Shown in pieces: positions 2,272 to 64,000 of a stretch of DNA of 64,000 nt (positions within the stretch are counted from its first letter, which is position 1; each line of letters begins with the position of its first letter). The stretch is from Climacium dendroides (lineage: Eukaryota > Streptophyta > Bryopsida > Hypnales > Climaciaceae). Both the position numbers and the translations under genes were made by a program. Below the pieces are notes generated by a model that saw nothing but the letters and a program-made list of their open reading frames with translations, ran no database searches and was not told the DNA's origin. The stretch is taken from assembly GCA_950106755.1 (NCBI GenBank), contig OX467092.1, positions 4,650,001 through 4,714,000 on the forward strand, in the 5' to 3' direction.

Positions 2272-3521
2272 TTTAAGTCATTGGTTAGACACAATTTTTA
2301 TTTTTTTAATATTATTTTATCATTTTTTAACATTTTTTTACATTAGAAATTATAGCTTTAGAATGGTTTTTAGTGAAATACTAAATTTTAGGAGTTAAAC
2401 CTTAAGTGCCTAGTGCACCATATTTTGGTATTGAAAAAAATTTGTAGTTGAGAATTTTTTACCAAATTATTATTTTTGGTATTTTTTTCAAAGTTAATAC
2501 CCTTTAGGTCTATTTTATAGCATGTGATTTTCAAAAAGAATTTTTTATAAAATTCCTATTTAAGATTTATGCAAACCCTTATAAATCATAGTTTCTTAGT
2601 GTTATAGGGCTCTTAGAGATGATCTTCAAATTCATTGGATATTGGAAAAAAATTACATTGAAAATCCATTATAAATAAATTGTAGAGTAGCTTTTAAAAT
2701 GCCATATATAGATTATGGTTATACTTGTTATGTCCTTTCACCTCAAGTTTATTTCATAACCACAATTTTTAATTTGTCATGTAAAACAAGGATTAAAAGT
2801 CTTCAATTCATTTTAAACTTTTTAACCCCATCATGATCAAACATTCTAATCTTTTATGTATATGTGATATTTTTGTATTCTCTTTTTCTAAATGTTCCGT
2901 AACATGTCTAATTTAAAATTGTACAGTTACAGTTCAAACTTCTGATAACTTAAGTTCTTAAATTAATTTTGATCAAGCTAAAAAACTAAAAAAGACCTTG
3001 GCCAATTAGGACTAAAGCCTTAAAGGGTTGATATCAATGTTGTAATTTGAAGGTTGGATCCAACCTTTATATAAAAATTGTTGAACTTTTTTCAATGCCC
3101 TTCAAGTTTGCAAGGTTGTCAAAGTAATAGCCCTTCAATATTTTTGGGGGCATGCAAAAAACAAAGAAGGATTGTAAAAATTAAAGTATAAAAATAAAAA
3201 ATTTCATTAAAAATCACACATAGAATAAAACTTCGTTGAAATCCATTAAACCAACAAAACATGTTTGAAACTTCAAACAAACAAAATATATACAAGTTAA
3301 GCTTATAAAATCTATGAAATGTAAGTGCAACTAATCTATTATTATCAATGTAAGTCTATGTCCAACTCAATTACTTTGTAGTACTTTGTACCAACATTTT
3401 GAAAATGCTAAATCAATCTATAGCTTCAAATTTTTTTTTCTACATAAAGATACCCTCATAAGTGCATTTAATATACTAAGATTCATTTTACTTTTTTGTT
3501 CACTCTTTAGTTTGCAATTAT
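2272..3521. other. AT-rich non-coding sequence
   Basis: No gene is recognised. Around 3.03-3.15 kb there is a slightly richer patch with no open frame. An isolated inverted family end ('taggagttaaa') occurs near 2.39 kb without a partner that I can place. Confidence 0.5.
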
Positions 3522-3525
3522 TTAA

Positions 3526-3880
3526 CCCCTAAAGGACCAAACTGTATTTTTTGGCAATATAGCCATTATGTATAAATCACTACAAATGGAATTTCTATTT
3601 TGAAAAGTTCCACTCGCATATGATTGTGCTTGAGGGAATTATCATTATTTTCTACCCAAAATTGGTGATTGTAGGCCAAGCAACAAAAACTCATATGAAA
3701 AGAACAATATGCTCAAACATTTGACGCAGACCTCTACTTATATTTTCTCTACAATGTCTCTACAAACTCAATAAGTTCATTTCTTATTATATTACATTGT
3801 TCATCACAATAATATAACTTGACAAACAATCTATCAAGACACAATTAACTTCACAAATGTGCACAACTACTCACCTCAAT
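3526..3880 (+). repeat. Fragment of a TTAA-family variant
   Basis: TTAA at 3522-3525 is followed by CCCCTAAAGGACCAAACTG. The next block (ttttttggcaatatagcc ... actacaaatggaatttc) is shared with the copy beginning near 24.51 kb, so these two form a subfamily distinct from the 0.9-kb copies. I cannot place the right end, so the limit is approximate. Confidence 0.4.
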
Positions 3881-3892
3881 TCTATATTTGCT

Positions 3893-4016
3893 ACTAGAAA
3901 ATTTTGTTGATTTGGTTGCGTTGATTTGGTGCACTTTTTGTTGATTTGAACAAAAAAACAACAAAAAAGTGAACCAAATCAATGCATTTAAATCAATAGA
4001 AAAACTGAATTTTCTA
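3893..4016. mobile_element. Foldback MITE-like hairpin, about 120 bp
   Basis: The left arm begins ACTAGAAAATT and contains GTTGATTTGG and CACTTTTTGTTG. The right arm contains CAACAAAAAAGTG, CCAAATCAA and finally AATTTTCTA, its reverse complement in order. The CTAGAAAA-type terminus resembles that of the CACTA MITE at 15.99 kb, so the same superfamily is possible. The exact ends are uncertain. Confidence 0.5.
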
Positions 4017-4020
4017 ATTG

Positions 4021-4900
4021 TTAGTCACACACTTGCCTTTAGCATCAAACAAGTGGATAATTGGTAAGCTTATTTAAAAATTAACATTATTTATTGGAGC
4101 TTAAAGGATTGGACCATATAATTAGAACTATAGAAATAAGTTGCTATTGAATTCTAGGACTTAGATGTGTACTTATGTGAAGGCAACTTCTTTTGGCAAT
4201 TATGCATGTATTCTACAAATGTCTTATTGTATAATCACTTTGGCCCAAACTTGCTTTAGTTGCCCACCTATATATTATATTCTCAACAATTCCAAGACCA
4301 AGGCTTTAAAATTGATACCCTAGGGAGTCCTTTATTTGACCTTTAATTTTCAGGCTAGCCCTTTAAATTCACAGTTTTAATCCACTCTTCATGATTGCAA
4401 GGTCAATTTATTTTTATTCATTCATTTGAAGAGCACTCACTTTTGCACCCCCCTCCTATCCCCTTCTTTAAGATTATTTTGCAATGTTAAGGACATTGTT
4501 GCCTTCAAAATATACCATTACACTAAAAAATTGTATTTAGTGTTAGCCATACTAACTATTTACTCAAGGCTATTTATTCTCTTTTATTTTATATACACAC
4601 CCTAGAATGACTTTGGGAGATGAGTGAGACCAACTGATTAGGCTTGGCATTTGTGAATAAGGTATAGAAGTAACTATTTTGGATAGCCCCCTTTTCATGA
4701 CTTTTAAGGTTCACCTATTGTGGACAATACTTGAATGCACTATTCATTGAGAAAGATTCTTTCTTTACACCTTCTTGTCCACTCATCTCCCTTCCCTCCC
4801 TGCTTGAACAGAAGTGCCAAAACTAACCACAATAGGTAAGTCTAAGAGACCAGAATGGGTCCCAATGAAAAATCTACATGAATATTAAATAAAATATTCA
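4021..4900. other. AT-rich non-coding sequence
   Basis: No gene is recognised. A small hairpin with CACTAAA and TTTAGTG arms lies at about 4524-4545. The base composition rises towards the less AT-rich island that starts near 4.9 kb. Confidence 0.5.
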
Positions 4901-7900
4901 TTCTTGGGGAAAAAAATTTCTTTGTTTTTGCGTTCTTCCTCATCCTCATGTTTGCACAGATTGAGCTCAGTTTCTCAACGAATTTCCCTCTGAAATGCTG
5001 AAATGCTTATCAGGAATAGGTCGGTACTTCTACCTTAAAGGTCCAGTCATTTAGTTTTCCCTGGGGACTGAAAAAGCAAATAGTTATGGTGGCCCCCATA
5101 AATAGGCGTGCCAGTATCCAGAGCCGCTGCAATGCAGTCGGGGACATTCTTCTCTTCAAAATTCTTCTCGCACTAAATTTCACAGGTCCTGGAGTGAAAT
5201 AACTGACAGCCACAGGTGCGCATATTTAGCAGCAGTAGACTTTACCGGAAATCTGTAATTCCTTGAATAGTAATGGCCATATTTCATTCTCAGCATTTAT
5301 CTACGTAGAGTAGGAGGCCGGCTGTGGACTGTAGTAGCTCGCCATGACGTCTGGCTTTACAGAATATCTAGCCTAATCAGCACTGGCACCACAGGGGCTA
5401 GCCCAATTCAGGTCGTAGCATGAAGTGAGCCTAAATATACCAAATCACCGCCAGTTGAGTGTGATGAGTACAGCACAACAGTGGCGTACGATACAGTAGG
5501 CCAAGAATGAGAGGTGGCACAGGACCCTGCTCATTGGCTCAAAAGCTCAAAACGTCACAACTCACAAGCTTAACCCTGGACGGAAGGACGCAATTCAATT
5601 GAGGAAATAAGAGTCCCAGATGGATGATTTTCTCTGAAACACGGAAAGCATCTATTGGTTCAAAAATTGAATCATTTCTGACTGAGTCACTATCACCTGG
5701 CCGGTGTCCTTCCAGGGCAAACTTACGTGATCGTATCGGCCGAATAATTCACTTGCAGACACCCCAGCGTGGAGCAGGAGTGGGTTTGGGATGCGGCTAG
5801 CTCAAAATTGGTTGCATTCAAGGCTGGTAAAACTTGCAAAGACGAAGGCCTCACCAAACAATAGCTGCTGATCTTGGGATTACAGCTCCAGCGTATGAAA
5901 CTATGAATCTCGAGCGGAGGCTTCAATCGATCGCTGGGAACCTAAAAATATAAATATGTGAAGAAACATTAGCAGTGAACTTGAAGACTCAGAAGTCATT
6001 CTATATCTCTCGCTCGATTGGCTCTAGTGCACGGCAACTTGCAGCCTCAGAAACTTTCAAACTCAAGCTGCGCACCTTGAATACCGTCAGAGCGTTTCTG
6101 GTATTACGTTTCCACGGCCATTCTGCTAATGATGACTATTGGGTGGTACAGGGCGCACGCGTGTGGTCCAGCTGAGAGTGCTTTCACTGTAGAGAAGATC
6201 ACGTAGCCACTCACAGGGAGAATGCAAGAAATCCCTGACCCCAAAGCTGCGGAGTATATTCAGTTCTTGTTTGAAAATCACCTGCAATACCATCGCAGAC
6301 GGAGTGTCTGAATGAAGAAAGGAAACTAAGGTGAGGGCACCTACAATCGATCCTAATTACAACTAAACATAGTTCCTATAATTATTAAACACAAATTACT
6401 TTACCATACATTATTTGCACAAAGTATGAATAAGTTATGAATTTTTAAAGCATTGTCTTTAGGTCTACTAAAAACCTACACCAAACCCTCAGACTTTCAT
6501 TTTCAGATAGTGCACTCCTTGTAATCAGTATCTAGGAAGAAATGACTCTTTTGGTCCAAATGTCACATTTTGGGCAGTGTCGATTGTGGGTGTACACACC
6601 TTAAGTACACACAAAGTTGAACGTATGTTCTAAGTCTTCTCGTCGTCATTGTAACTCAGGGTTAGTATTACCCCAATATGAGCAACCGGCGGGTTAGTAT
6701 TGTACCTCCTGCGTAACCCTCGACGGGAATTGAAAGTGCATTCCACAAGTGACTCCCATACTGACATCATTTGCTACTATATCATTGATCACTATGTCAA
6801 TGAAAGGGTGAACTTCTGTTTAAATGGCCATATAGCACCTCGATTAAAGATGATTTGCTTGCACCCACGCTGCTTGCACCAAACAAGACTAAGTGACATT
6901 TCAGCGAAGGTCAGACACTGCGATTGAAACTCAGTGATAGCACTGCTGCAATATCGAAATTCAATACAACTGAGAATTCAAAATCATACTGCTAAATTAT
7001 GGAGTGCACAATGATATCAGGATCAAACCTCTGCTCCGGGACTTTCAGAAAGTTGAAAAATCCTCCAGTGTGGTAGACGGTAAAAGCCTACGAGCAGGAA
7101 CCTTGAATTGAGAGTCCAAGGCAATCACTCTAAAATGAACTGCAACATGAACAATAACTACAACTGTATGAATGAAAGTTTCAGGCAGAATGTGAATGCC
7201 AAAGCTTGCATGTAACATTTCCTCGAACTACGCAAAACACAGAAACTTTCGAACCGTTGCAACCAAGCAAAGCATTTTTAAAAGCCTGGCATTAAAACGT
7301 TGCAACGCTGACTCAAAAAGTATCAGCAACTGAAATGGCTCTCTAGTCGATCATACCTCCAATAAAGTAGCGCACTTGAAACCGATGCTTACAGTACTTC
7401 CAACGCGCAAAGACCCCAAGTACACAGGCTCGAATCCAGGGTTGCTATTGGTTTCAAGTTACCTTGAACGTTGACAGCAGTCAGTCAGAGAGCATCCGTA
7501 CGTATCAAATGCACACAATAAAAGAAATACTATAACTGGAACCAATCAGAGAGCCAATCACTGAGTGTACAACACATGTACACTAAACAAAGCTCGAGGA
7601 ACAGAATGGAAGAACTCAGTAAATGAAAAGCATATACTAAAAAACGCACATCTTCAGCAAGAACGACGTCCACGGAAGTCTTTGTCAGAAACTCACAGCA
7701 ATCTTTGAGACCAGTTTTACCACAAGCGCTGCATGGGAATCATCAAGGCAAGACAAAGCTGCTACGATTATAAAATTTAGAACCGACGAGATCTCTCGTT
7801 TTTTAATAGACCTGTTAATCCAGGTCTATTTTAAGCAGAATGCACTATTTGAATTCGACCAGCGGATGTTCAGAGTACCGAGAGACAACTTATCTTTAGG

Positions 7901-10680
7901 GTAAGCAATAGCAGTTAATATTCAAATGAAAATGGTAACATACAAGGGCTCACGTAGTAATTATAACGCTGACCCGATGATTTGCGATCGTCGTTTTTGG
8001 AGTGATTCAGCAAGCCACGCACAACAAGGGCAACCAACTGAAGCACAGTTTCCAGGTCGCGTCATCCGCTACGTAGTATGCACAAATTAGATTCAGTCGA
8101 TCAATACTCAGAATGTGCAATGAATGCCTAAACTTTCAGATTCAGCTGAACAGTACTGAGAATGTACACTGAATAACCGAATCACCCCTGTAATATTCGC
8201 TACAGAACCATCATGCCGTCTCTGCCAATCATACCTTGAATAAAACCTCGCCTGTTAAATGTGCTGTTTTGAAAATATGATAACACAGACTCATCAATCT
8301 GCTTGTCATAGAGAATTCGGGTGCAAACAAGTCCGGACTTACTAAAAGTTCTTCAGAGGGATGCCAGGAACTCACCTAAAGTTCTGCAGAAGGATATCTT
8401 CCAGATTTCGCGCCTGAATACTCGTTGCTAACGGTATTGTTGAACTCCTTAAATCATCTGCATTGTGACTTCACAGCGGGCACCGAAGGGATATCGTTAT
8501 TTTATCAACCCACTGAACAATCGAGTAGCGGATTTAGAAAACCTACCCTCGCGCTTGCGAACCCCTAGATGGTTGTGAGCACTTTCTTACTGTGCACGTT
8601 TTCCTCCACTTTGCATCAAGACACCAAATCTGCTTTCTCCTGCATACTCTGCTAGATTCGTCAGCTGCAGTGAACCTAGCATAGACGATAGACAAAGGTC
8701 TGATTCATACAAAGCCGTAGCACCTTCATGGATTACTCTGAAGTCCTTCAAAATTTCATCAGATTAAGAACATACAACCACTACTACACGTCGTTGGCTA
8801 GCTGTCAAGTAAAGCAACCTACACCTCAGAACAGTAAGGTCTCTGATTCATTCTGGGTTATACTCGTAGTGACTGATGGCATGCAAACTGAGTGTGGTAC
8901 ATTCTCCATTGGACATTCAAGGATGAAGTCACTCTAGGTCCAAGTTCTAGAAGTATTGCTCCTGCAAATACAGTGAACACTGGTTATGGAATAAGTCACT
9001 CCACTAATTCACTTTTCGTTCCCTAATCAGAAACATACTAAGTTCAACAAACAAACACGCACGGGAGGAAGACGAAGTATAATTTAAATTCAAATTGAGA
9101 TCAGTCTCAACTCACCAAAACGTCAGCGATTAAGCGAAACATGTAAACACAGCGTTTGTTCAATGTGAGTGCCCATCGCTCTGAGACTAATGCACACGAG
9201 TTCCGCGAATCGTCTACGTAACTGCAAAGTTAAAATCAATTCAACTTTACAATGTGCTAATGTAGATGAAGATCGTTTCTCCCCGTGATACTCGATCATG
9301 ATCTGCACAACAGTCACAAACTTCAATTTGAGATGCAAAATTCTGTGCCAAGTTCTTGGGATCTAATCAACATCAACATCAAACCTTAACTTAAAAAGAA
9401 CTTGAGAGCTATGACAATGGAGTAGAACAGTCATGTCAGGCTATCCTCAAGAAATTAACGCATTATAGATCATATGCGAGAAGATGCCTAATTGGAGCCC
9501 GATTCATACCTGTATATTTCGCCATCACTCCCATTTTGCGTCACTTGTCATGATACGCTATGTCATGAAGCTATGTCATACAGTAATGTTAAATTACATG
9601 AACATATGAAACTAACAGGAACATCTGTCTGGCGTCACATTTCTATATATTGAGGTACCTTACTACTGTTTCTTGCATGTTTAATACCAACTTGACAGTC
9701 ATAAGAATGTAGGTATACTCCGGTCGTACCAGCAGAGACGATGAAGCGGTCGTAGTTTCATAATATCAAATCCGCAAGTGACTCAAATGTCTCGTAAGCC
9801 AAGAGCTTGAGTAAAACATGAAATGTAACAATCCAAAACCTCTGTGAACAGTTTCACTCCAAAACTAGTCAGCAATGGTGCATAATTCTAAAATTGACGC
9901 GTACATGTGCTCTAAAAATTTGCATTCTGTAATCTGTATCGTTATGACAGCACTGCCTTCGCGTGCACTTTGAATTCGTCCACAACTCAGCAGTAGCGTA
10001 AATATCCGCACATGCGACTATAAGTAACTGGTCAAGCATCCGACTTATAATCATATGCCACTAGAACAAGACCTCGTCTACCGACGTCAGAGCACAGTAA
10101 AAGGATCCGTCCAGGTGAGAGCTCCGAGTGAATGAAAGTAACGTTAGCTACACAATCTAAATATTGCCAAGGCTCCCTTCTCCAAAAAACTAGTTAGTCC
10201 TAATTAGTGCTGAACCACAATAATACACGGTCTACCTCCCGACATCTTACATCCAGCTTCACCCGCACAAAGCTTGGGTTCGGGTTGAACTGTCGCGTAA
10301 AAATAGAGTTACTGCGCAACTGCGCTAAGCTACTGTCCTCGAAATGCGCAATGTCAATGACCTGGCGGTTGCTCTCTCGGCAACAAGAAGGATTCGAACA
10401 GAACCGAAGAACTGAGCGAGGTGATGTCGCCCCGCTTGTCAGCAGAACTATACTGCTTAGTCACCAGAGATTACAGCAAATGCAAGTGGTCACATGTGTC
10501 CAAGCCTCTTTAGCCTAACAAGGGGTATTCGGCGGCGTTAGAAACGACAAGTCCTTCGTCGTGAAGATACTTCGCAAAAATAGAGGCCACTCATAGATCG
10601 TAAGAGTACTAAGCTGGATGGCTCGCAAAATTTGTCGACTGCTACTACTGACATATTTCATCATTCGCAATGGCGACACA
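4900..10680. other. Compositionally distinct island, no coding gene recognised
   Basis: This stretch has a clearly higher GC content than its flanks and lacks the TTAA-type repeats seen elsewhere. All open frames are short (about 100 codons or fewer), occur on both strands and show no family motif that I recognise. It lies beside the miR529 stem-loops and on the downstream side if those are transcribed from the minus strand, so it could hold the 3' part or introns of a long primary transcript. That is inference. The only local structure I noted is the hairpin at 7805-7830. Confidence 0.5.
7805..7830. other. Perfect 10-bp hairpin
   Basis: AATAGACCTG at 7805-7814 is the reverse complement of CAGGTCTATT at 7821-7830, with a 6-nt TTAATC loop. 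T-rich and A-rich flanks extend the symmetry weakly. It lies in the otherwise featureless island, and I assign no function. Confidence 0.6.
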
Positions 10681-10682
10681 GC

Positions 10683-10795
10683 CAAGTAGGGACTGGAAAA
10701 GAGGGAGCACAGCCCGACATCAGTTCCCCTGGAAGAACTTGAAGAAGAGAGTGAAAAGTAGGGGGCTGTGCTCTCTCTCTTCGAATCCCGGCTTG
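10683..10795 (-). ncRNA. MIR529: MIR529 precursor stem-loop 1
   Basis: Read on the minus strand, the 5' arm holds a 21-nt segment (10783 down to 10763) beginning CGAAGAGAGAGAG and ending CACAGCCC. This matches the miR529 sequence I know from bryophytes at every position I can recall. The 3' arm (10715 down to 10695) pairs with it with only a terminal mismatch, one G:U and one A:C, the imperfect pairing usual in true miRNA duplexes. The stem continues below the duplex: GGGATT pairs with AGTCCC, and after one mismatch a further five pairs follow. The loop is about 47 nt. On the plus strand the 5' arm would give a non-canonical sequence, so the minus strand is favoured. miR529 is related to miR156 and directs cleavage of SPL transcription-factor mRNAs. 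A second stem-loop lies about 140 bp away. Confidence 0.88.
10763..10783 (-). ncRNA. miR529: Mature miR529 (C-starting isoform), 5' arm
   Basis: These 21 nt, read on the minus strand, begin with C and contain the GAGAGAGAGCACAGCCC core of miR529. The position on the 5' arm agrees with known miR529 precursors. The match to the published sequence is from memory and should be confirmed against miRBase. Confidence 0.82.
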
Positions 10796-10932
10796 AGTGT
10801 AGAAAGGTTTGACTGATGTCCTCAAACGGACAGTGCCGGACTGAGTGGGAAAATCCTACGCCTTGTTGCGGGATATTCTTGACTTTTGGTGGTCTTCTGA
10901 ATAATCTTGAAGCGTTGTTGCCGGGCGTGTGA

Positions 10933-11029
10933 CACTCACGTTGGAACAAGAAGAGAGAGAGCACAGCCCATTCCAACTTAGCATTGGCTATCGGGCTGTG
11001 CTCTCTCTCTTCTGATTCCAGTGTGAGTG
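10933..11029 (-). ncRNA. MIR529: MIR529 precursor stem-loop 2
   Basis: Two perfectly complementary 21-nt arms lie at 10949-10969 and 10993-11013, separated by a 23-nt loop. Below the duplex comes a 2-nt mismatch, then TGGAA paired with TTCCA, a 2-nt internal loop, and CACTCAC paired with GTGAGTG, giving a stem of more than 30 bp. Because the two arms are exact reverse complements, transcription of either strand yields the same 21-mer (AGAAGAGAGAGAGCACAGCC plus C) on the 5' arm. I assign the minus strand only because stem-loop 1 is on it and one transcript could then carry both. A fully paired duplex is less typical of an old miRNA gene, so a recent inverted duplication is an alternative origin. 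Confidence 0.82.
10993..11013 (-). ncRNA. miR529: Mature miR529 (A-starting isoform), 5' arm
   Basis: On the minus strand this is the 21-nt miR529 form that starts with A. The identical 21-mer is present on the plus strand at 10949-10969, so the strand of origin cannot be settled from sequence. It differs from the isoform of stem-loop 1 only at the first base. Confidence 0.78.
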
Positions 11030-11459
11030 AGAAAATTCCAAGAAGCCCGCCTCCATGGACTAACCAGTTGGACCCTAGGAGAAGTCCTTCAACTCTCTCA
11101 AGGGAGTTGGAACTCAACGGGAAAAAGCTCGCACCACACCTGTATAAGATCGTAAACGACAAAGCAATCGACGACGCTCAGGGGTGAGTAAGAACAGTTG
11201 CCTGGCCCTAGGAGGCATGCATGGGACACAACTATGCCATTCAAGTTTTAAAAATTCGATGCATGTGAATTACAGACAGCTAGTTCTTGCCTATGCGGGT
11301 TTAAAAGCCAGTCAGGAAAATCGACTCTACGAGTCGATCGTCACTCCACTCACAGAGATGGCAATGAGAGCCTATGATTTACTCTACAGTTTCAAAATAC
11401 TCTTAGAGCCAAAGGAAAAAATGGAAAAAGAAAGAAGAAAGAAAGCGGTTACCAGGCTG

Positions 11460-11560
11460 AAGTGGTTTTGAACAACACTACACTCGCAAGCATATTCTTA
11501 CGCTGAAGGGATTCTCAACAGCTCTACACTCGCAAGTATATTCTTAACGTTCAGCAGGTC
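11460..11560. repeat. Two-copy direct repeat, about 46-bp period
   Basis: A segment containing CTACACTCGCAAG, an ATATTCTTA block and a following (a)cG(c)T block occurs twice, first from about 11,473 and again from about 11,523. The few substitutions suggest a local duplication. It lies just upstream of the stem-loops if these are read from the minus strand. I see no function. Confidence 0.55.
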
Positions 11561-11639
11561 GCCTTCGTTAACGAGGGACAGTCACGCAACCACACTCAGT
11601 CAAGGATGAAGGAGGGCTGCTTCACGACGCTCTTAACAA

Positions 11640-12700
11640 CAAATCTGCAACTCATGGACCTTCAGAGTGCAGCGGCGTGAAACCTCCGTCCAAAGCTCTA
11701 GAGCGGAACGCCGTGGTGGGCAAGGAATTCCACGCCAACCACGGCACGCTTAGCTTGTGGTTAGACTACAGTTTGTTCGAAATTCACAGACGAGCCACAG
11801 CAATTGCTCAACTGGGCCGAAAATCTTCCAAGGAAGGAGCGGCGGCACGACTTGTTACCGAAATGACTTCGAAGCTATTCTCGATTCCAAGTTTTTTGTC
11901 ATCGCCGTGCATTACCGGTAACCATTACGTCGCAAGAATTAAACCACCAAGCGGCGCCCAGCCGGCATCCGATGCATGCGTTTGCATCCGCGGCGAGCCT
12001 CAGAGCCACATTGACCAGCAAGCGCACCCTCACATGGTGGAAATCAGCTCCAGATCTCCTTCTCCCCGTCCCGCCCCCCAATACCGACGAGTACCAGTCA
12101 TGGAGCGAGGGGCGGGGTGGTGGATGCGCCAGTCGCCCGCCAAGAAACAAAGCAGGCAACTGAAGCAAATAAGGCTACAGGAGTGCAGGCACGAGGCACC
12201 CGGCAGGCAGGCAGGCATGCGCAAGGCGAGCAGGCAAGCTGTAGGGAAGAGGCTTGCGGCTGCTGGCTGGCTGGCGTCACGGATCAGTGCTGTGGTACTA
12301 AGGCAAGGGTGCGTGGTGTCAGAGCAGGACAGACGAGAGAGCACAAGATGCAAGCAAGATGGTTAGCAAGCAGGCAAGCGCAGACGAGAACGGGGAAGAA
12401 AGACGATTCCGCTTCTGCTTTCATAGTACACGGAAGGAAATGCCTGCCCCAGAAAGAAACCAGGGGGGACTGCACGACGGGCTGCCTCCGGTTCTACTCC
12501 CCCATTCCCGCCCACACACCCTTTTCCCACGACGGGCAGTCGCCGGTCACCGCCGTCGCCGTCGTCTTGGGCTGCGAGGGCAACCCTATAGGCTGCATCT
12601 TTCGACGGCAGCCCGCTACTTGCTGCTAACATTACCCCGACGCTGGAAAGAAGGGAGGCACCGTTGCCGCTGCTGTAAATTCCGATTTCGGTGAAAACCC
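11640..12700. promoter_or_regulatory. CpG-rich block, candidate promoter region of the MIR529 transcript
   Basis: This is the most GC- and CpG-rich stretch of the window (for example the GCCGTCGCCGTCG run near 12,550), with short AGGC/GGCA iterations around 12,190-12,260. Overlapping open frames appear on both strands, up to 229 codons, but they are Arg/Ala/Gly-rich, overlap each other and show no domain, so I read them as a result of composition. The block lies 0.6-1.7 kb upstream of the stem-loops on the minus strand, which would suit a promoter and first exon. I found no convincing TATA box pointing that way. Confidence 0.3.
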
Positions 12701-13455
12701 ATTTCAACCGTTCCAAACATTCCTGGAATGAGCCAATCCTTCGTCCCTTTATTATGTCAGAGCCTGTTTAAAACTTCAAATTCTCCCACAGTCCCACACA
12801 TTCTCTGAATGAAATCTCCTTCCGTAATTTCATTCCACATACCTTAATCAGAATAATAATAGTAATGATCAGCAATGCAATCCTCCAGTCAGGCATGCCC
12901 TCTTCAGTTATTATTACTATGATATTCCCTTTATTATTCCGCCCCCTTTCAAACATTCCCTTCAACGAAAACCCAGTTCATCAGTGTGCATTTGACATTC
13001 CTCATCATAATTACTGCTAACCCTCCTGGAGCCCCGGTCACCCACCTTCATTACTGACGGACGGAAGTGTACTTTCACTCCACGCCACACCTGTATCGCC
13101 CAATCCCGGCTTCTCACGCCCCTCTCAAATCTTTCCAGTAATCACTCTACTGATAAGATTCCGGGAGGGCCTGCAGGGAGGGACTGAAGTACAGGGACGG
13201 CATCTCCACCACTGGCAGGCACCTGCCGATCATCGCCCAGCTAAAATGCTATATAGAGTCCCTCAAGTACCGTGGCAGCTGCCGTGGGAGTATGTCCTTG
13301 GCAAATACGCCACATTCTTCATCTGGGAACACCATTGGTGGAAAACAATACGGTATGCAGTAAGTCAATGTTGGGAGAGAGAATCTGGGGGGGTCAAGAA
13401 GGTAATCGTGGGATAATCAGTAGGTCAGTACCTTTGGGCCCAAAGTTGTAACTTC
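12701..13455. other. Non-coding edge of the GC-richer island
   Basis: No gene is recognised. ATTATTATTACT-type runs occur near 12.86 and 12.91 kb. A CTATATAG motif at about 13,249-13,256 could serve as a TATA box on either strand, but nothing downstream supports this. The island gives way to AT-rich repeats just after 13.45 kb. Confidence 0.45.
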
Positions 13456-13462
13456 ATTTTTT

Positions 13463-13486
13463 GGGGTGGGGTGGGGGTGGTGGTGG
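13463..13486 (+). other. G-rich run with quadruplex potential
   Basis: Runs of four, four and five G separated by single T, followed by GGTGGTGG, meet the usual G-quadruplex pattern if the last runs are counted leniently. The run marks the right edge of the GC-richer island. Confidence 0.5.
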
Positions 13487-13694
13487 TTTTAAAATGGTGT
13501 TTTAACTTTATTTGACACATATTTTGTACCAACGGAAATAAAGATAAATAAACTTCTTTCCTCGGGAATCAAGGATAAAGGAATATGTCGTTTTATTTTG
13601 TGCCAACAATACAAGTTGTAACTTGTAAGGTGGCATTGTTGAGAGAAAGAAGTTTGATCTATATTAGTGTAATATCAAATTTGAATAGGTTTAA

Positions 13695-14616
13695 CCCCTA
13701 AAGTTTTCACCTTCACTACGTTTTCAGTGAAAACGCTCCAAAACTGTCATTTCTAGTGCAAGTACCAAAATTTTGAAATGTTTTTTTTTACACATGTAAC
13801 CATAGGATCTTGTAGTATGCTGACTTGAGAACACGAGGCAAAAATTTCAAAAATTTCCACCGCATAGATTGCAAGATATAAGCATTCTCATTCACTGAAA
13901 TCTTTTTTTTAGCCCTACAAAAAACAGGGCAGTTGCACTTCATAAGCTTACTTTCCTATGAAAAAATGTCCAAAATGGTAGTTACTCTTTGGATTCTTTT
14001 TCCTAGACAAGTTGGTTACATGCTTAGAAACTTTTAGATCATTTGGAATTGTACAACATATAGGAAAAAAATAGCAAGTAGAAGTAGTAGAGAATGATTC
14101 AAAATATTAAATTGTGAAGGATTTAATTATGGAATTGAAAAATGCCAATCCCAATGGTTGAAATGTTGTTATAAACAAACTACATCCTATAATTTTATTT
14201 TTTCCAAAATATATTGAAAATTGAGTAAGATAAAGGACTTCAAAGTTTATTTTAGAGTAGATAATCTATAATTTCTTGCAAACAAAAACTGCTCATAACC
14301 TTCATCTCATTGATCAAAATGGAATGATTCAAAGCTTTCCGCGTTTCCACAAATCTAGAAAACCAATTTCAAATTTTTGTTTTAAGAAAAAGCAATTTTT
14401 CCTGATTTGCTTGTATTGCCCGACCGGTGAAAAAAATAACATATTTGGCCATAACTTTTTAGTCATATTTTCAAATGTCATGAAATTTGGTGTATATGAA
14501 AGATATTCCTGATCCCCACCTATTAAAATTTCAGCCTAAAATATGGAAATCTCTAGTCACTTGTACCTGCCCAAAATTTCTATATAGCCCCAAAACACAT
14601 GCCGGTCCTTTCGGGG
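13695..14616 (+). repeat. TTAA element, copy 2 (922 bp, full length)
   Basis: TTAA flanks both ends (13691-13694 and 14617-14620). The left end is CCCCTAAAGTTTTC and the right end GGTCCTTTCGGGG, which is inverted and imperfect. The interior carries the 'gattgcaagatat' block and the 'ttgatcaaaatggaatgat' block found in the other copies. The length equals that of the nested copy at 50.9 kb. There is no coding capacity; the longest open frame, 78 codons, has no recognisable product. Confidence 0.75.
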
Positions 14617-14620
14617 TTAA

Positions 14621-15778
14621 GCAAGGAATTGTACATATTCTAGTGTAAATATTGAAATTTTGGTGTAAAAATACAAACAAATTTTTCTTTGCACTTTGGG
14701 TGCTTGATGGAACTTTGTATAGTGTAGTTTGCAATTGTAAGTTTTTATTTATCAACAATTATAGTAAATTTAAATTCCAACTCAAAGGGTTTGAAAACCA
14801 AAGGTTGGAAGATATTTGATGTGTGCAATAGTAGAAACAATAAATCCAAACTTACATCTTTAAATTGACTCAAGTGCATCTAAAAATATACATAAATTAT
14901 ACATATCAGATACTAGTAAGCATTGTTGTATTGAAATTTCATCATTTTTTCAATTCGATATGATTTTCTATAGGATTTGGTAGACCCCCGCTTTTAGGGA
15001 ATTTCAAAACATCTAAGACACACTCCCAATTCCATACTACTAAGTCTCAAAAAAGCCTTAAAGGCCTTGTGATCTTCTTATTAGGATTCCTTTTAGCTTT
15101 GGACTTCAAATATAGAGTGTAAGCCCATTTTTGCAATAAAATCTTTAGTAAATCATTGTCGTCTATTTATTTTTCCAAATACAACAAGTATTGAAGAATT
15201 TATGGCCCTTCAAAGATCTAGGACCCCTAGGAGATGTAGTTCTTTGGGACTCTAGTGGCCTCTTTGATTGCTCATAATTTTTAGATCATAGCTTAGTTCT
15301 TGGTGATCTTTAGCATTTTAGAAACCTTGTTTCATTAGCTTTTTAACAATATGCATCATGCTCTATTTAGAATAAGAGATTCTCCGTGACCCCCTACTAC
15401 TACTACATCTTACACCTTAGAACAATGTCAACTTTGAGAAACGATAACTTTTGACTTCCAACTCATATCATTGTGCTCTTTGTACTTATAGATGAATCCT
15501 CTCATTATCTTTTCAAACAAATGTAGCCATCTAAGTAGTTCCAACCAAAATGCTACAACACTTTGTCCACTTAATTAGGACTCCTCATTTCTCTCACCTT
15601 ATCTCTTGCAAAGCATGGGGAATCACCCTCAATGTTCTCCTTGCTCACCAAGGTTGGCACAAGTACATTAGAGTGAGGATTGTGACAAACAATGTCAAGA
15701 GGTTATCTTGACAGATTTTAAAGGGATCAAGTCATCTCAACAAAATAGATTGGTCTATTTTGGTTAGTCCTTATTGTA
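14621..15778. other. AT-rich non-coding sequence
   Basis: No gene, RNA or bounded repeat is recognised. There are no long open frames. Confidence 0.5.
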
Positions 15779-16500
15779 CTACTACCTCCATCCCAAAATG
15801 ATTTTCACGTTGGACAAAATATTCCAAATTAAGGCTTAAAATAACATTTTGAAAACCAATTTCACACTATAGGTAAAGTTTGGTGCACTCCTAGCATTCT
15901 AAATTTTTTTTAGTTTTGGAGCTTTTCTCAAAGTGTAGTTTAAGATTATTGAAAAGTAGATTTTAGGGAAATTTTTTCAAGGAGCACCATTCACTAATAG
16001 AAAATTGTGTCATAGTCAACAAAAGCTAGTTGACATTTTCTAAAAATTGTGTTGAAACAAACACAAATTTTTGAAAATTATTTTGTAGTGAATACAAATT
16101 GAAAATTGTGTTTGTAGTGAGTGCAAAACACAAAAAATATTAGCCAACTTTTGTTGACTATAACACAGTTTTCCTCTAGTGATTGGTCAATTAATTGTTG
16201 AGTGTGCAATTGTCATTTTGTAGGCATTTAGTACAATCATGCCTAAGACTACATGTGGGCCTTTGTTCTTCCTCCTAGAGTTTCATCCTATTCAATTGGA
16301 CAATATTAAAAGAAATGCAAAAAATAAGAATGAACAATGTTGATTGACCCCTTTAGTCATTTCATTTGTCTTTTGATTGATGATTGCATAGATGGAGGGG
16401 GAATTACTACTTGAAGTTGTTTTGTTGGTCCCAAATAGCAATCAAAAAGCAAATTTGATAAATTTGCAATATTACAAAGTACAATAGGAGGCATCTTTTT
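15779..16500 (-). mobile_element. Stowaway-like element, right end truncated, host of a CACTA MITE
   Basis: The left end reads CTACTACCTCCATCCCAAAA, a Stowaway (Tc1/mariner MITE)-type terminus. The body aligns in inverted orientation with the better preserved copy at 57.0-57.57 kb, including the AAAGTGTAGTTT and GTCATTTTGT.GGCATTTAGTA blocks. The copy at 57 kb lacks the 190-bp segment at 15,992-16,181, so that segment is a later insertion. The expected right terminus (inverted CTCCCTTTGTCCC) is not found near 16.5 kb. Confidence 0.6.
15992..16181. mobile_element. CACTA-type MITE, 190 bp, with ATT target duplication
   Basis: The element starts CACTA and ends TAGTG, the CACTA/EnSpm terminus. 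About 34 bp of terminal inverted repeat can be aligned (both arms contain ATAGTCAACAAAAG) with a handful of mismatches. A 3-bp direct repeat, ATT, flanks it at 15,989-15,991 and 16,182-16,184, the target-duplication length of the superfamily. The related Stowaway-like copy at 57 kb supplies the empty site. It has no coding capacity and must depend on a transposase elsewhere. Confidence 0.82.
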
Positions 16501-25334: not shown

Positions 25335-25928
25335 ATATTTGAAATTATTCTTTTAGATTTATATGTATGTGAAAAGCTTTGAATCATTCCAATTTGATTA
25401 ATGAGATATCGAGATGAAAGTTATGAGGAGTTTTAGTTTGTAGGCAATTATAGATTTTTTGCTCTAAAATAAACTTTAAAATCTATTATTTAATTAATTT
25501 TTTAATATTTAATAAATAAATAAAATCAAATGATGTAGAATGTTTATTATAGCATTACAACCATTGGGATTGGCATTTTTCTGTTCCATAACTAAATTCT
25601 CAACAATCTAGTATTTTGAATCATTCTTTGTTTTTTCTACTTACTATTTTTTTCCTATATGTTGTACAATTACAAATGATCTGAAATTTTCAAGCATGTA
25701 GCCAACTTGCCTTGAAGAATGAATTCAAAGAAGCACCACCATTATGGACATTTTTTCATACAAATATGACCTTGTGAAGTTAAGTTACCCATTTTGGGGG
25801 GCCAAAAAAATATTTTTGTCACTTCAAATGCTAATATCTTGCAATCTACATGGTGGAAATTTTTGAAATTTTTTCCACATTTTTTCAAACTAGTGTACTA
25901 CAAGATACTCTAGTTGGATGGGTCCAAT
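25335..25928 (+). repeat. Inverted repeat partner of 41.21-41.81 kb
   Basis: This 0.6-kb segment is the reverse complement of 41,208-41,810 with only scattered differences, visibly closer to it than to any other copy of the family. Shared landmarks include GCAATCTACATGGTGG, GGCCAAAAAAATATTTTTG (with a small length difference) and AGCACCACCATTATGG. The TTAA-family L end (...TTTAGGGG then TTAA at 26,037-26,040) follows downstream. A diverged, truncated third copy lies at about 52.6-53.06 kb. Confidence 0.75.
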
Positions 25929-27984: not shown

Positions 27985-29160
27985 TAAAATGTACCCCAAT
28001 CCATTAGATGTAAGACAAAAATACAATAATATAAAGGTCTATTTTGCTTAACAATTGAATCTTGGACACGTGTAGAGAAGAGACATGATGTAGCCCAGTC
28101 CATCAAGGGTGAGACAAAAAAACATTGTTAGGTAGCCTATCTTACTTAACAACTCAAATTTAGACACATATAGAGAGGGGACATGATGTAGCCCAGTCTA
28201 TCAGGGGTGAAACAGAAAACATTATCAGATAGATCTATCTTGCGTAACAACTGGAGCTTGGACACGTGTAAAGAGGGGTCACAATGTAGCCCAATCCATC
28301 ACGGGTGAGACAAAAAACATTGTTAAATAGATCTATCTTGCGTAACAACTGGAGCTTGGATACGTGTAGAGAGGGGTCATAATGTAGCCCAATCCATCAC
28401 GGGTGAGACAAAAAACATTGTTAAATAGATCTATCTTGCGTAACAACTGGAACTTGGACACGTATAGAGAGGGGTCACAATGTAGCCCAATACATCATGG
28501 GTGAGACAAAAAACATTGTTAAATAGATCTATCTTGCGTAACAACTGGAGTTTGGACACGTGTAGAGAGGAATCACAATGTAGCCCAATCCATCACGGGT
28601 GAGACAAAAAACATTGTTAAATAGATCTATCTTGCATAACAACTGGAGTTTAGACACGTGTAGAGAGGAATCACAATGTAGCCCAATCCATCACGGGTGA
28701 GACAAAAAACATTGTTAAATAGATCTATCTTGCGTAACAACTGGAGCTTAGACATGTGTAGAGAGGGGACATGATGTAGTCCAATCCATCAGGTGTGACG
28801 AAAATAATGTTACGTAGACCTATCTTGCGCAACAACTAAATCTTAGACACGTGTAGAAAGGAAACATGATGTAGCCCAGTCCATCAGGGGTGAGGAAAAC
28901 AATGTTACGTAGATCTACCTTGCATAACAACTAAAGCTTGGACACGTATAGAAAGGAGACATGATGTAGCCTTGTCCATCAAGAGTGAGACAAAAAAACA
29001 TTGTTAGGTAGACCTATCTTGTGTAACAACTCAATCTTGGACATGTGTAGGGAGGGGACACGATGTAGCCTAATCCATCAAAGGTGAGACAAAAATAATG
29101 TTACGTAGACCTATCTTGCGTAACAACTGAAGCTTGGACAAGTGTAGAGAGAAGGCACAA
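27985..29160. repeat. 98-bp tandem array, about 12 units
   Basis: The landmark TGTAGCCCAATCCATC (with variants) recurs at 28,091, 28,189, 28,287, 28,385, 28,483, 28,581, 28,679 and 28,777, exactly 98 bp apart. Spacing becomes 93-101 bp in the outer units at 28,872, 28,965 and 29,066. The central units are nearly identical and the outer ones diverged, the pattern left by unequal exchange with homogenisation. Many units contain GACACGTGTAGAG, a palindromic CACGTG core; others carry variants such as CACGTATAG. The unit length is not a multiple of three and no frame runs through, so this is not a repeat protein. Confidence 0.92.
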
Positions 29161-41170: not shown

Positions 41171-41207
41171 TTTATGACTCTTTCATGTGAAAATGGTAAA
41201 ACATTTT

Positions 41208-41810
41208 TGGACCCATCCAATTAGAGTATCTAGTAGTATGCTAATTTGAAAAGATGTGGAAAAAGTTTCAAAAATTTCCACCATGTAGATTGCAAGATAT
41301 TAGCATTTGAAGTGACAAAAATATTTTTTTGGCCCCCCAAAATGGGTAGCTTAACTTCACAAGGTCATAATTGTATGAAAAAATGTCCATAATGGTGGTG
41401 CTTCTTTGAATTCATTCTTCAAGGCAAGTTGGCTACATGCTTAAAAATTTCAGATCATTTGTAATTGTACAATATATAGGAAAAAAATAGTAAGTAGAAA
41501 AAAATAGAGAATGATTCAAAATACTAGATTGTTGAGAATTTAGTTATGGAATAGAAAAATGCCAATCGCAATGGTTGTAATGCTATAATAAACATTCTAC
41601 ATCCTTTGATTTTATTTATTTTCTAAATATTAAAAAATTAATTAAATAATAGATTTTAAAGTTTATTTTAGAGCAAAAAATCCATAATTGCCTACAAACT
41701 AAAACTCCTCATAACTTTCATCTCGATATCTCATTAATCAAAATGGAATGATTCAAAGCTTTCCATGTATACTTATAAATCTAAAAAAATAATTTCAATT
41801 TTTTTATTCT
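41208..41810 (-). repeat. Inverted repeat partner of 25.34-25.93 kb
   Basis: This segment is the reverse complement of 25,335-25,928 with only scattered differences. Similarity stops abruptly at GGACCC near 41,208 (GGGTCC near 25,928), where the copy at 25 kb continues to its TTAA end. This copy is therefore truncated, or it recombined with the neighbouring element. Confidence 0.75.
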
Positions 41811-60230: not shown

Positions 60231-60360
60231 CCATGATACCACCATGGACGAGAAGGTTATTTGGAAACCGCTTGCAAATCATAATAGGAGAGCCGACATC
60301 CACAGAACATCGTGACACAGCCCTAGAACTACAGAGGACGAATTACAAGGCTGAACTTAC

Positions 60361-61470
60361 AGATTTCGAGGACGGAAGGGGATCTTTTTTGGCTGCCGTT
60401 GAGGCAGTCCTTGGTCGGGTGTCCCGCTTCTGTCCCTTTCCTTGCACACATACGATTTTGTAATCAGAAAAGAAGATCAAAGGAAGGTGAGCCTGGGCGC
60501 TTTCACATGTCCAAGCCCGTGGATAGCTAATCCCCTCACCTTCCAGAATGTCCAGAAACTCATATATATGTCCAACACGGCGTCTGTGTAGCATTTGTGA
60601 CATGGACTCGTTGACAATTTCAGGGAATTTGGATCGAAAATCAGCAACGTCTGTGCTCGAGTGCAAAGCCTCCAACAACAGCCACAGGTATTGTTTGAGG
60701 TATTCCTTGTCATCTGCCAATGAGCACATCCACTTTACATAGAATGGGGTACTGATGATAATATTAGCCTCCGGATTGCAGTAGAACCTACTGTGTTTAC
60801 TGTCTACTATCACTGTATTGGCTGTACAGAAACGAGGCCATGTTGCATATACTGCCTCTAGTTGCTTACCCCACTCGGTTGGGCAATCACCTCCCGTATC
60901 CTCACCCTCAAGAACTTTATCTGACCAAGAAAACAAGGGGGTTTCGTACCCTGAAGCTTTCCTATCACCTAAGATCGCTGACCTACACGTCTTCCATATG
61001 CAGCTTACTGCTGCTACCCTAGAAGCCCATACAGAAATTGCTAAAGCATCGACACAAGAAGGGCTTCAACCATGGTCAAAATACTACTCTTCGAAGCGCT
61101 GTTCGAATGGTACTTCGAAGAACCCTAAAAGAAGTTACCTTCACAGACACAGAAACCATAAAACTACTCAACCGCGCCTCGACGAACGATAAGAAATGTG
61201 CATTTACCTGTGGGCTTCTTCTCCTCATTATGCTTAATGCTCAACCTATGTGCAAGGAAAAAAAATGTTTAGGGTTCATACTTGACGTAATGGCATCGCC
61301 ATCAGATTTCTTCGCCTTCGACGACGAGTCTCTTGCGGACCTCATCTCAGGGCGCCACTTGCCGTCTTGTAAGTGCGATGCTTTCCTAATTGGAACGCCT
61401 GCCTGCCGCAAACTCCTTCGCACAACTCCGTCATGTCTGTTTTCAATAGTGGGAGGCGGTTTACGACCCT
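60361..61470 (-). pseudogene. FCP1-like HAD phosphatase exons carried by the transposon
   Basis: The main exon (about 61,040 to 60,540) encodes AISVWASR, a FSWSDKVLEGE stretch, TVIVDSKHSRFYCNPEAN and then a helical Asp/Leu-rich tail. This order follows the C-terminal half of FCP1/NIF-type HAD phosphatases (V.VWSSR, then 'LLIDDS..K...NP'). The usual DDS is DSK here, so a conserved acidic residue is missing. A consistent splice (GAAG|GTGAGG to TGCAAG|GAAAG) joins exon 60,440-60,361, which ends at CT|GTAAGT. Upstream, a basic linker (RKPPPTIENR ... RPEMRSARDSSSKAKKSD) and a 38-bp exon (61,245-61,208) are plausible. The region expected to hold the catalytic DxDxT motif is broken by stops, so the protein is divergent or incomplete. 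The family acts on phosphoproteins such as the RNA polymerase II CTD. Confidence 0.5.
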
Positions 61471-63429: not shown

Positions 63430-64000
63430 AATGAGGAGGACGCCTATCAGGAGTTGGTTCAGCTCTAGAAGTACGGAGGAGAAGAACCCTCTCCCCGGGA
63501 AGGACCAGATGATGAGGAGACGGAAGACGAGGAGCAGCCCACTCCTTTGACGAAGAAGTCCCGACGGCAGGCGACTCCACCGGTAATGCCAACGGAGGAT
63601 CCTCCCGTGCCAGAGCCAATGGAGGAGGGCGCTCCGGACCGGAAAGAAGAAGCCGGGCCTTCTCAACAAGAAGCCGGACCTACTCAGTCGGAAGCTGGTC
63701 CCTCTCAGACAGAGGCCAGTCCCTCTCGGACCAGACCTACAGAGGCAGAGGAGGAAGAGAGGACCGAGCTCCGACTAGGGGGGTCGCCCTTGGAGGACAT
63801 TTCGGATCTGGCCCAGCACATCGTGTGGTGGACAAAAGACATCATGAAGATTCTCCAAAACTATGAGAAGATCCTCAAACGGGTGTGCCGAAAGATGGCA
63901 CTAACCGACCGGAACGCCATCTTCCGGAGGACGGACGCTTTGGTGGCGGTGGAGAAACAAAATGCCATCTTGATCGAGGAGCAAAAGAAGTCGGAGGCGG
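63430..64000 (+). pseudogene. Gag-like retrotransposon protein, second part (runs off the window)
   Basis: The frame continues that of 58,184-58,579: NEEDAYQELVQL, TAG at 63,466, then an uninterrupted 177-codon stretch to the window edge. The sequence is first acidic and Pro/Ser-rich, with a short iteration of the type EAGPSQ/EAGPTQ (about 63,645-63,720), then a helical segment (ISDLAQHIVWWTKDIMKILQ) and a basic, coiled-coil-like stretch ending in VEKQNAILIEEQKKSE. This suits a gag-like protein rather than an enzyme. The 3' part of the element lies beyond the window. Confidence 0.55.

Follow-up and report, generated by a model that had tools for sequence, protein, structure and literature searches.

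Two neighboring hairpins in a stretch of 64,000 bases of Climacium dendroides DNA (the window; 34% GC, without any N) are best explained as a tandem pair of MIR529 genes that arose by local duplication, would be transcribed as a primary miRNA from the minus strand, and would have SPL and, probably, TAS6 transcripts as targets. A probability of about 0.87 is given to this reading. The pair and the GC content, together with the literature, point weakly to a moss as the likeliest source, ahead of a fern or a monocot. SPL genes are regulated by miR529, which is related to miR156. The absence of miR529 from most eudicots, mentioned in the original prediction, is stated in PMC5426797. Hairpin 1, the first candidate MIR529 precursor, extends from 10677 to 10801 and hairpin 2, the second candidate, from 10933 to 11029, both on the minus strand and both delimited by their outermost paired bases, in the minimum-energy fold in the case of hairpin 1. 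The free energies of the minus strand were -55.8 kcal/mol for 10670-10810 and -68.4 kcal/mol for 10925-11037. Each hairpin carries a miR529 21-mer in its 5′ arm, CGAAGAGAGAGAGCACAGCCC at 10763-10783 in hairpin 1 and AGAAGAGAGAGAGCACAGCCC at 10993-11013 in hairpin 2, again on the minus strand. These are the positions at which they had been predicted, and the rest of that description was also correct: the former starts with C, the latter with A, and the last 20 nucleotides are common to both. The distance of 138 bp initially given between the hairpins had to be revised, as the spacer measured between the outermost paired bases (10802-10932) has 131 nucleotides.

Folding of both strands placed the two arms of each hairpin in one stem, in agreement with the original prediction. 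When a 411-nucleotide stretch was folded, the free energy was -163.8 kcal/mol for the minus strand (z -9.24) and -177.5 kcal/mol for the plus strand (z -8.37), and none of 100 shuffles was as good in either case. Both 21-nucleotide stretches paired with their own arms at a mean probability per base of 0.87-1.00 in contexts of 1.1 and 1.7 kb, and in the same contexts the probability of pairing with the other hairpin was 0.000. In both cases the miRNA lies on the 5′ side of one stem-loop shorter than 300 nucleotides. From the pairing and the geometry of a 2-nucleotide 3′ overhang, the predicted star sequences are GCTGTGCTCCCTCTTTTCCAG (10693-10713, minus) in hairpin 1 and GCTGTGCTCTCTCTCTTCTTG (10947-10967, minus) in hairpin 2. 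Plant miRNA duplexes have at most five mismatches, at most three of them in bulges. Two of the 21 miRNA nucleotides are unpaired in hairpin 1 (positions 1 and 10) and none of 21 in hairpin 2, which keeps both duplexes within these limits. The imperfect duplex described for stem-loop 1 was thus confirmed, and so was the extended stem below its miRNA, which has 18 nucleotides. This last trait had been ascribed to stem-loop 1; it holds there, but hairpin 2 has it too, with 16 nucleotides on both strands. The lower stem of each hairpin includes three unpaired bases on its 5′ side. The general rule for plant lower stems is a length of 15-17 nucleotides, and 18 and 16 nucleotides suit base-to-loop dicing by this rule.

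The assignment to the miR529 family was supported by the mature letters more strongly than by the scores of the precursors. CGAAGAGAGAGAGCACAGCCC has no mismatches to the letters of rice miR529a as published in PMC4898717, and AGAAGAGAGAGAGCACAGCCC has none to the fern pmi-miR529_v1 of PMC5426797, a sequence for which the text of the latter gives ppt-miR529d 5p as the closest miRBase entry. The shared 20-mer was in print in at least two papers located by a literature search. In Rfam, MIR529 (RF00908) outscored every other family among the matches listed at both hairpins, and model positions 1-131 were covered. Hairpin 2 scored 49.3 bits on the plus strand and 48.6 on the minus strand, hairpin 1 scored 37.3 and 35.0 bits, respectively, and the best E-values in the whole window, 1.5e-8 (plus) and 2.4e-8 (minus), both belonged to hairpin 2. 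The gathering score of this family is 75; it was reached by none of the four hairpin and strand combinations (35.0-49.3 bits), and a scan at gathering scores was empty. Membership of the precursors in RF00908 is consequently not claimed, and the miR529 identity proposed here, which comes from the letters, is that of the mature sequence only. A score between 30 and 40 bits does not prove a relationship, since an unrelated hairpin at 3904-3999 reached 41.4 bits to another family, and the Rfam score of hairpin 1 is unconvincing by itself. The hairpin at 3904-3999 is AT-rich, its match is to mir-3910, which has a cut-off of 95, and it is probably a small inverted-repeat element. Taken together, the exact 21-mers, the separate folds, and the rank of MIR529 among the families listed support the original proposal of two miR529 precursors.

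That the hairpins belong instead to one of the related families MIR156 or MIR535 is very improbable. On its minus strand hairpin 2 does score 39.6 bits to MIR156 and 32.0 bits to MIR535, yet MIR529 ranks above both at each of the two hairpins, and a query with the miR156 letters had four mismatches at its best match where miR529 had none. Across the locus the scores were 25.2-39.6 bits for MIR156 and 17.4-32.0 bits for MIR535 (RF00714), below their gathering scores of 62 and 64, respectively. Another reading takes the locus for a GA-rich inverted repeat without miRNA function, either low-complexity DNA or the remnant of a transposon, that resembles miR529 by chance. The core is indeed GA-repetitive and other hairpins in the window score 25-41 bits to unrelated miRNA models, but the half of the sequence that reads GCACAGCCC is not of low complexity and the two hairpins carry miR529 at the same arm position. 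Moreover, the shared 20-mer has four matches in the window at up to three mismatches (three exact, one with two mismatches), one per hairpin arm, and none at that tolerance in 100 dinucleotide-preserving shuffles, nor did a perfect inverted repeat of at least 20 nucleotides occur in first-order Markov surrogates, of which 20 represented the whole window and 2000 the region 10201-11500. The exact 20-mer was also absent from a prokaryote genome collection and from IMG/VR, although records near the window may be missing from both. These prokaryote and viral collections, IMG/VR included, served as controls and are uninformative about rarity among plants; pattern P0002 found 22 stretches in IMG/VR, none of which was confirmed. 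With these results, a chance likeness has scarcely any probability left.

Hairpin 2 is a perfect palindrome of 21 bp whose ends coincide with those of the mature miRNA, and the bases that flank it on either side are non-complementary in the DNA. It is the sole perfect inverted repeat of at least 14 nucleotides, with a loop of 3-80 nucleotides, in the 64 kb. Because hairpin 2 is palindromic, the plus strand spells a 21-mer identical to AGAAGAGAGAGAGCACAGCCC at 10949-10969, in the 5′ arm of a plus-strand hairpin with a free energy of -67.1 kcal/mol; from the pairing, its would-be star occupies 10995-11015 of the plus strand. The predicted stars of the two strands have different ends, ...CTTG on minus and ...CTGA on plus. 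Hairpin 1 has the canonical 21-mer on the minus strand only. Its plus counterpart at 10695-10715, GGAAAAGAGGGAGCACAGCCC, is degenerate, with three mismatches to miR529. Since hairpin 2 yields the same 21-mer from either strand, hairpin 1 is the one element that assigns the locus to the minus strand. The Rfam scores slightly favor the plus strand, against this assignment. The stability of the duplex ends was also compared. On the minus strand the 5′ ends of the miRNAs had -0.8 and -3.0 kcal/mol, against -6.0 kcal/mol at the 5′ end of the star in both cases; the weaker miRNA ends favor loading of the 5′-arm strand. The corresponding values on the plus strand were -1.3 and -3.6 against -6.0 kcal/mol, and because the asymmetry is the same it permits no call of the strand.

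These observations raise the question of whether hairpin 2 is functionally symmetric, with both strands transcribed and the same miRNA produced from each, and with hairpin 1 acting from the minus strand only. Such an arrangement is compatible with the tandem pair proposed above. The match between the palindrome and the extent of the mature sequence, in the only inverted repeat of its kind in 64 kb, speaks for it, as do a plus-strand fold on a par with that of the minus strand (-67.1 and -68.4 kcal/mol), the marginally higher Rfam score on the plus strand, and the equal asymmetry of the plus-strand duplex ends (-3.6 and -6.0 kcal/mol). Precursors that act from two strands have, besides, been proposed in plants, in the texts of PMC3433442 for ginseng and PMC4876996 for soybean. 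Nevertheless, the symmetry follows automatically from a perfect duplex and does not require any function of the plus strand, hairpin 1 does not share it, and the coincidence of the palindrome ends with the miRNA ends was spotted post hoc. Thus, we consider this arrangement unlikely. A more specific version, that the palindrome is confined to the 21 mature bases and has been kept since both strands are transcribed, each yielding miR529, so that two promoters would feed one miRNA, is quite doubtful. The literature searched, which covered mirror, palindromic, and two-strand miRNAs and for the most part lay outside subscription papers and supplementary files, held no report of a palindromic MIR529.

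The origin of the pair was approached by comparing the four arms, all oriented as 5′ arms, over 46 positions. The arms of hairpin 2 differ from each other at 10 positions and those of hairpin 1 at 15. Between hairpins there are 12 differences for the 5′ arms and 15 for the 3′ arms, and the remaining two pairings have 13 and 20. When the 5′ arms of hairpins 1 and 2 were compared, one of the 21 mature positions and five of the 16 lower-stem positions differed; for the 3′ arms these values were three of 21 and six of 16. Pooled, the mature part has 4 differences in 42 positions and the 16 nucleotides below it 11 in 32 (Fisher P 0.017), and separately the two arms gave P values of 0.066 and 0.14, neither of them below 0.05. 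The pattern fits a local duplication followed by selection on the mature part, as far as such small counts can suggest. Recent homogenization of the arms of hairpin 2 is a further event that would be compatible with the tandem duplication; either gene conversion or a new inverted duplication of the arm with the miRNA could have brought it about. The two arms of this hairpin differ at 10 of 46 positions, none of them among the 21 mature ones, which is fewer than the 12 and 15 of 46 at which they differ from the matching arms of hairpin 1. A published star, GCTGTGCTCACTCTCTTCTGG of the fern in PMC5426797, is one base off a perfect complement over the 19 paired nucleotides. On the other hand, the outer stem and the loop of hairpin 2 were not homogenized and the counts behind the arm comparison are small. 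Homogenization is regarded as possible, though less likely than not, and may have left its trace in the identity of these arms.

The proposed tandem pair would be expressed as follows. One primary transcript of the minus strand, in which hairpin 2 precedes hairpin 1, would contain both precursors. The original prediction had also proposed this single transcript, which is plausible, and a spacing of 131 nucleotides is compatible with a polycistronic MIR cluster. A DCL1-type enzyme would cut about 16-18 nucleotides above the base of each stem and release 21-nucleotide duplexes, the 5′-arm strand would be loaded into Argonaute, and the loaded miR529 would direct the cleavage of SPL (SBP-box) mRNAs. 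In moss, TAS6 transcripts are a probable further target of cleavage. The pair itself would derive from local duplication of one hairpin, and hairpin 2 could give the same miRNA if the other strand were read. No target gene of miR529 was found in the window. The only TATAWA motif of the minus strand in 10900-13800 is at 13255 and no AATAAA is present on that strand in 8500-10700; a transcript of the minus strand would thus have no core signals nearby, which is a point against the explanation favored here. The plus strand has one TATAWA in 9500-11000, at 9644, and no AATAAA in 11000-13000.

The locus lies in an island that is GC-richer and retains CpG. From 5001 to 13500 the observed/expected ratio of CpG was 0.48-1.16 in 17 bins of 500 bp. 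In the other nine bins of 3501-16500 it was 0.00-0.33 in seven, and 0.54 and 0.42 in the two that cover 13501-14500. In bins of 2 kb, the ratio was 0.91 in 10-12 kb and 0.66-0.91 across 6-14 kb. A second island, at 58-64 kb, had ratios of 0.62-0.82, and the remaining 25 of the 32 bins were at 0.03-0.44. From these ratios we infer that the locus may be in unmethylated, gene-like chromatin amid methylated DNA. The second island includes an open frame of 240 amino acids (60346-61065, minus) that has one relative among ENA proteins, 62% identical over 117 amino acids, and a Pfam match to NIF phosphatase at an E-value of 0.04, below the cut-off. A conserved gene may have one of its exons here. The original prediction regarded the miR529 pair as probably the only functional locus of the window; a second island with a frame that has a database relative makes this view doubtful, and the pair is probably not the sole functional locus. 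The frame at 63469-63999 gave 198 candidates and no relative. Among ten chosen frames, one had a Pfam match at an E-value of 0.1, and no tRNA was detected in the window.

A search of the window for repeats of at least 60 nucleotides found 22 families in direct and 35 pairs in inverted orientation. A tandem array at 27989-29151 consists of 11.9 copies of a 98-bp unit with 85% matches. The segments 25370-25927 and 41207-41765 form two adjoining inverted repeat pairs about 15 kb apart, with arms of 297 and 267 nucleotides that are 96% complementary. They belong to dispersed repeat families and are likely a recent copy of a mobile element.

The region around the pair was also inspected for coding sequences. 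A stop-to-stop frame of 220 amino acids (10515-11177, minus) covers both hairpins. It was rejected as a candidate: it has no Pfam match, its first methionine is residue 172 of 220, and the frame is likely incidental. When all six frames of 4001-13902 were compared with Pfam, each stop being replaced by X, no family was found at an E-value of 0.01 in any of them. At 0.5 kb from the pair, the plus strand has a stop-to-stop frame of 264 amino acids (11572-12363) with a 90%-identical relative of 230 amino acids, aligned with a single one-residue gap, on a JGI contig of 1767 bases; a JGI sample may therefore contain DNA from a close relative. It has no Pfam match and may or may not be coding. This interval is upstream of the putative minus-strand primary miRNA and could be promoter or transcript. 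A lone 11-nucleotide match to the miR529 core (GAGAGAGCACA) is located at 12335-12345 of the plus strand, 1.3 kb from the pair, and no Rfam match was among those listed there at an E-value of 0.5.

Function and arrangement can be compared with those of known systems. In Marchantia, miR529c targets MpSPL2, and its loss leads to the appearance of reproductive organs (PMC10721683). This is the same family in a bryophyte, where it acts on an SPL mRNA and restrains the reproductive transition; the evidence comes from mutants of another species, and the likeness to the pair described here is at the level of the family. According to the text of the same paper, miR529 of Physcomitrium patens occurs chiefly in gametophores that bear developed sporophytes, where its role is described as unknown. 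Moss TAS6 loci bear miR156/miR529 sites, as stated in PMC5907777 and PMC3835848. The seven MIR529 genes of P. patens include three tandem pairs (PMC4409300, data not shown in that paper), and a review that cites Axtell 2007 describes 25% of the miRNAs of this moss as polycistronic (PMC9291395). The P. patens pairs resemble the one in the window in that miR529 genes lie side by side, which was read there as tandem duplication. The spacing differs, less than 100 nucleotides in P. patens (PMC4409300), where the way of measuring may not be the same, compared with 131 nucleotides between the stems here. The 21-mer that starts with A comes closest to ppt-miR529d 5p, going by PMC5426797, and the RF00908 model has a longer loop than hairpin 2.

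Ginseng MIR6135/6136 and soybean gma-miR-N1 are also alike, in that the DNA of a hairpin was proposed as the source of miRNAs from both strands. Those are non-conserved or novel miRNAs, whereas hairpin 2 holds a conserved miRNA and each strand spells the identical 21-mer. Tandem MIR529 pairs and two-strand precursors are hence known kinds of structures, and within the literature searched, the exact palindrome in a member of a conserved family is the unreported feature. Palindrome aside, the locus is an ordinary conserved miRNA locus. Set beside these systems, a pair whose members start with different nucleotides (C and A), one of them palindromic, is a readily testable case of miRNA duplication, arm homogenization, and possible expression from two strands.
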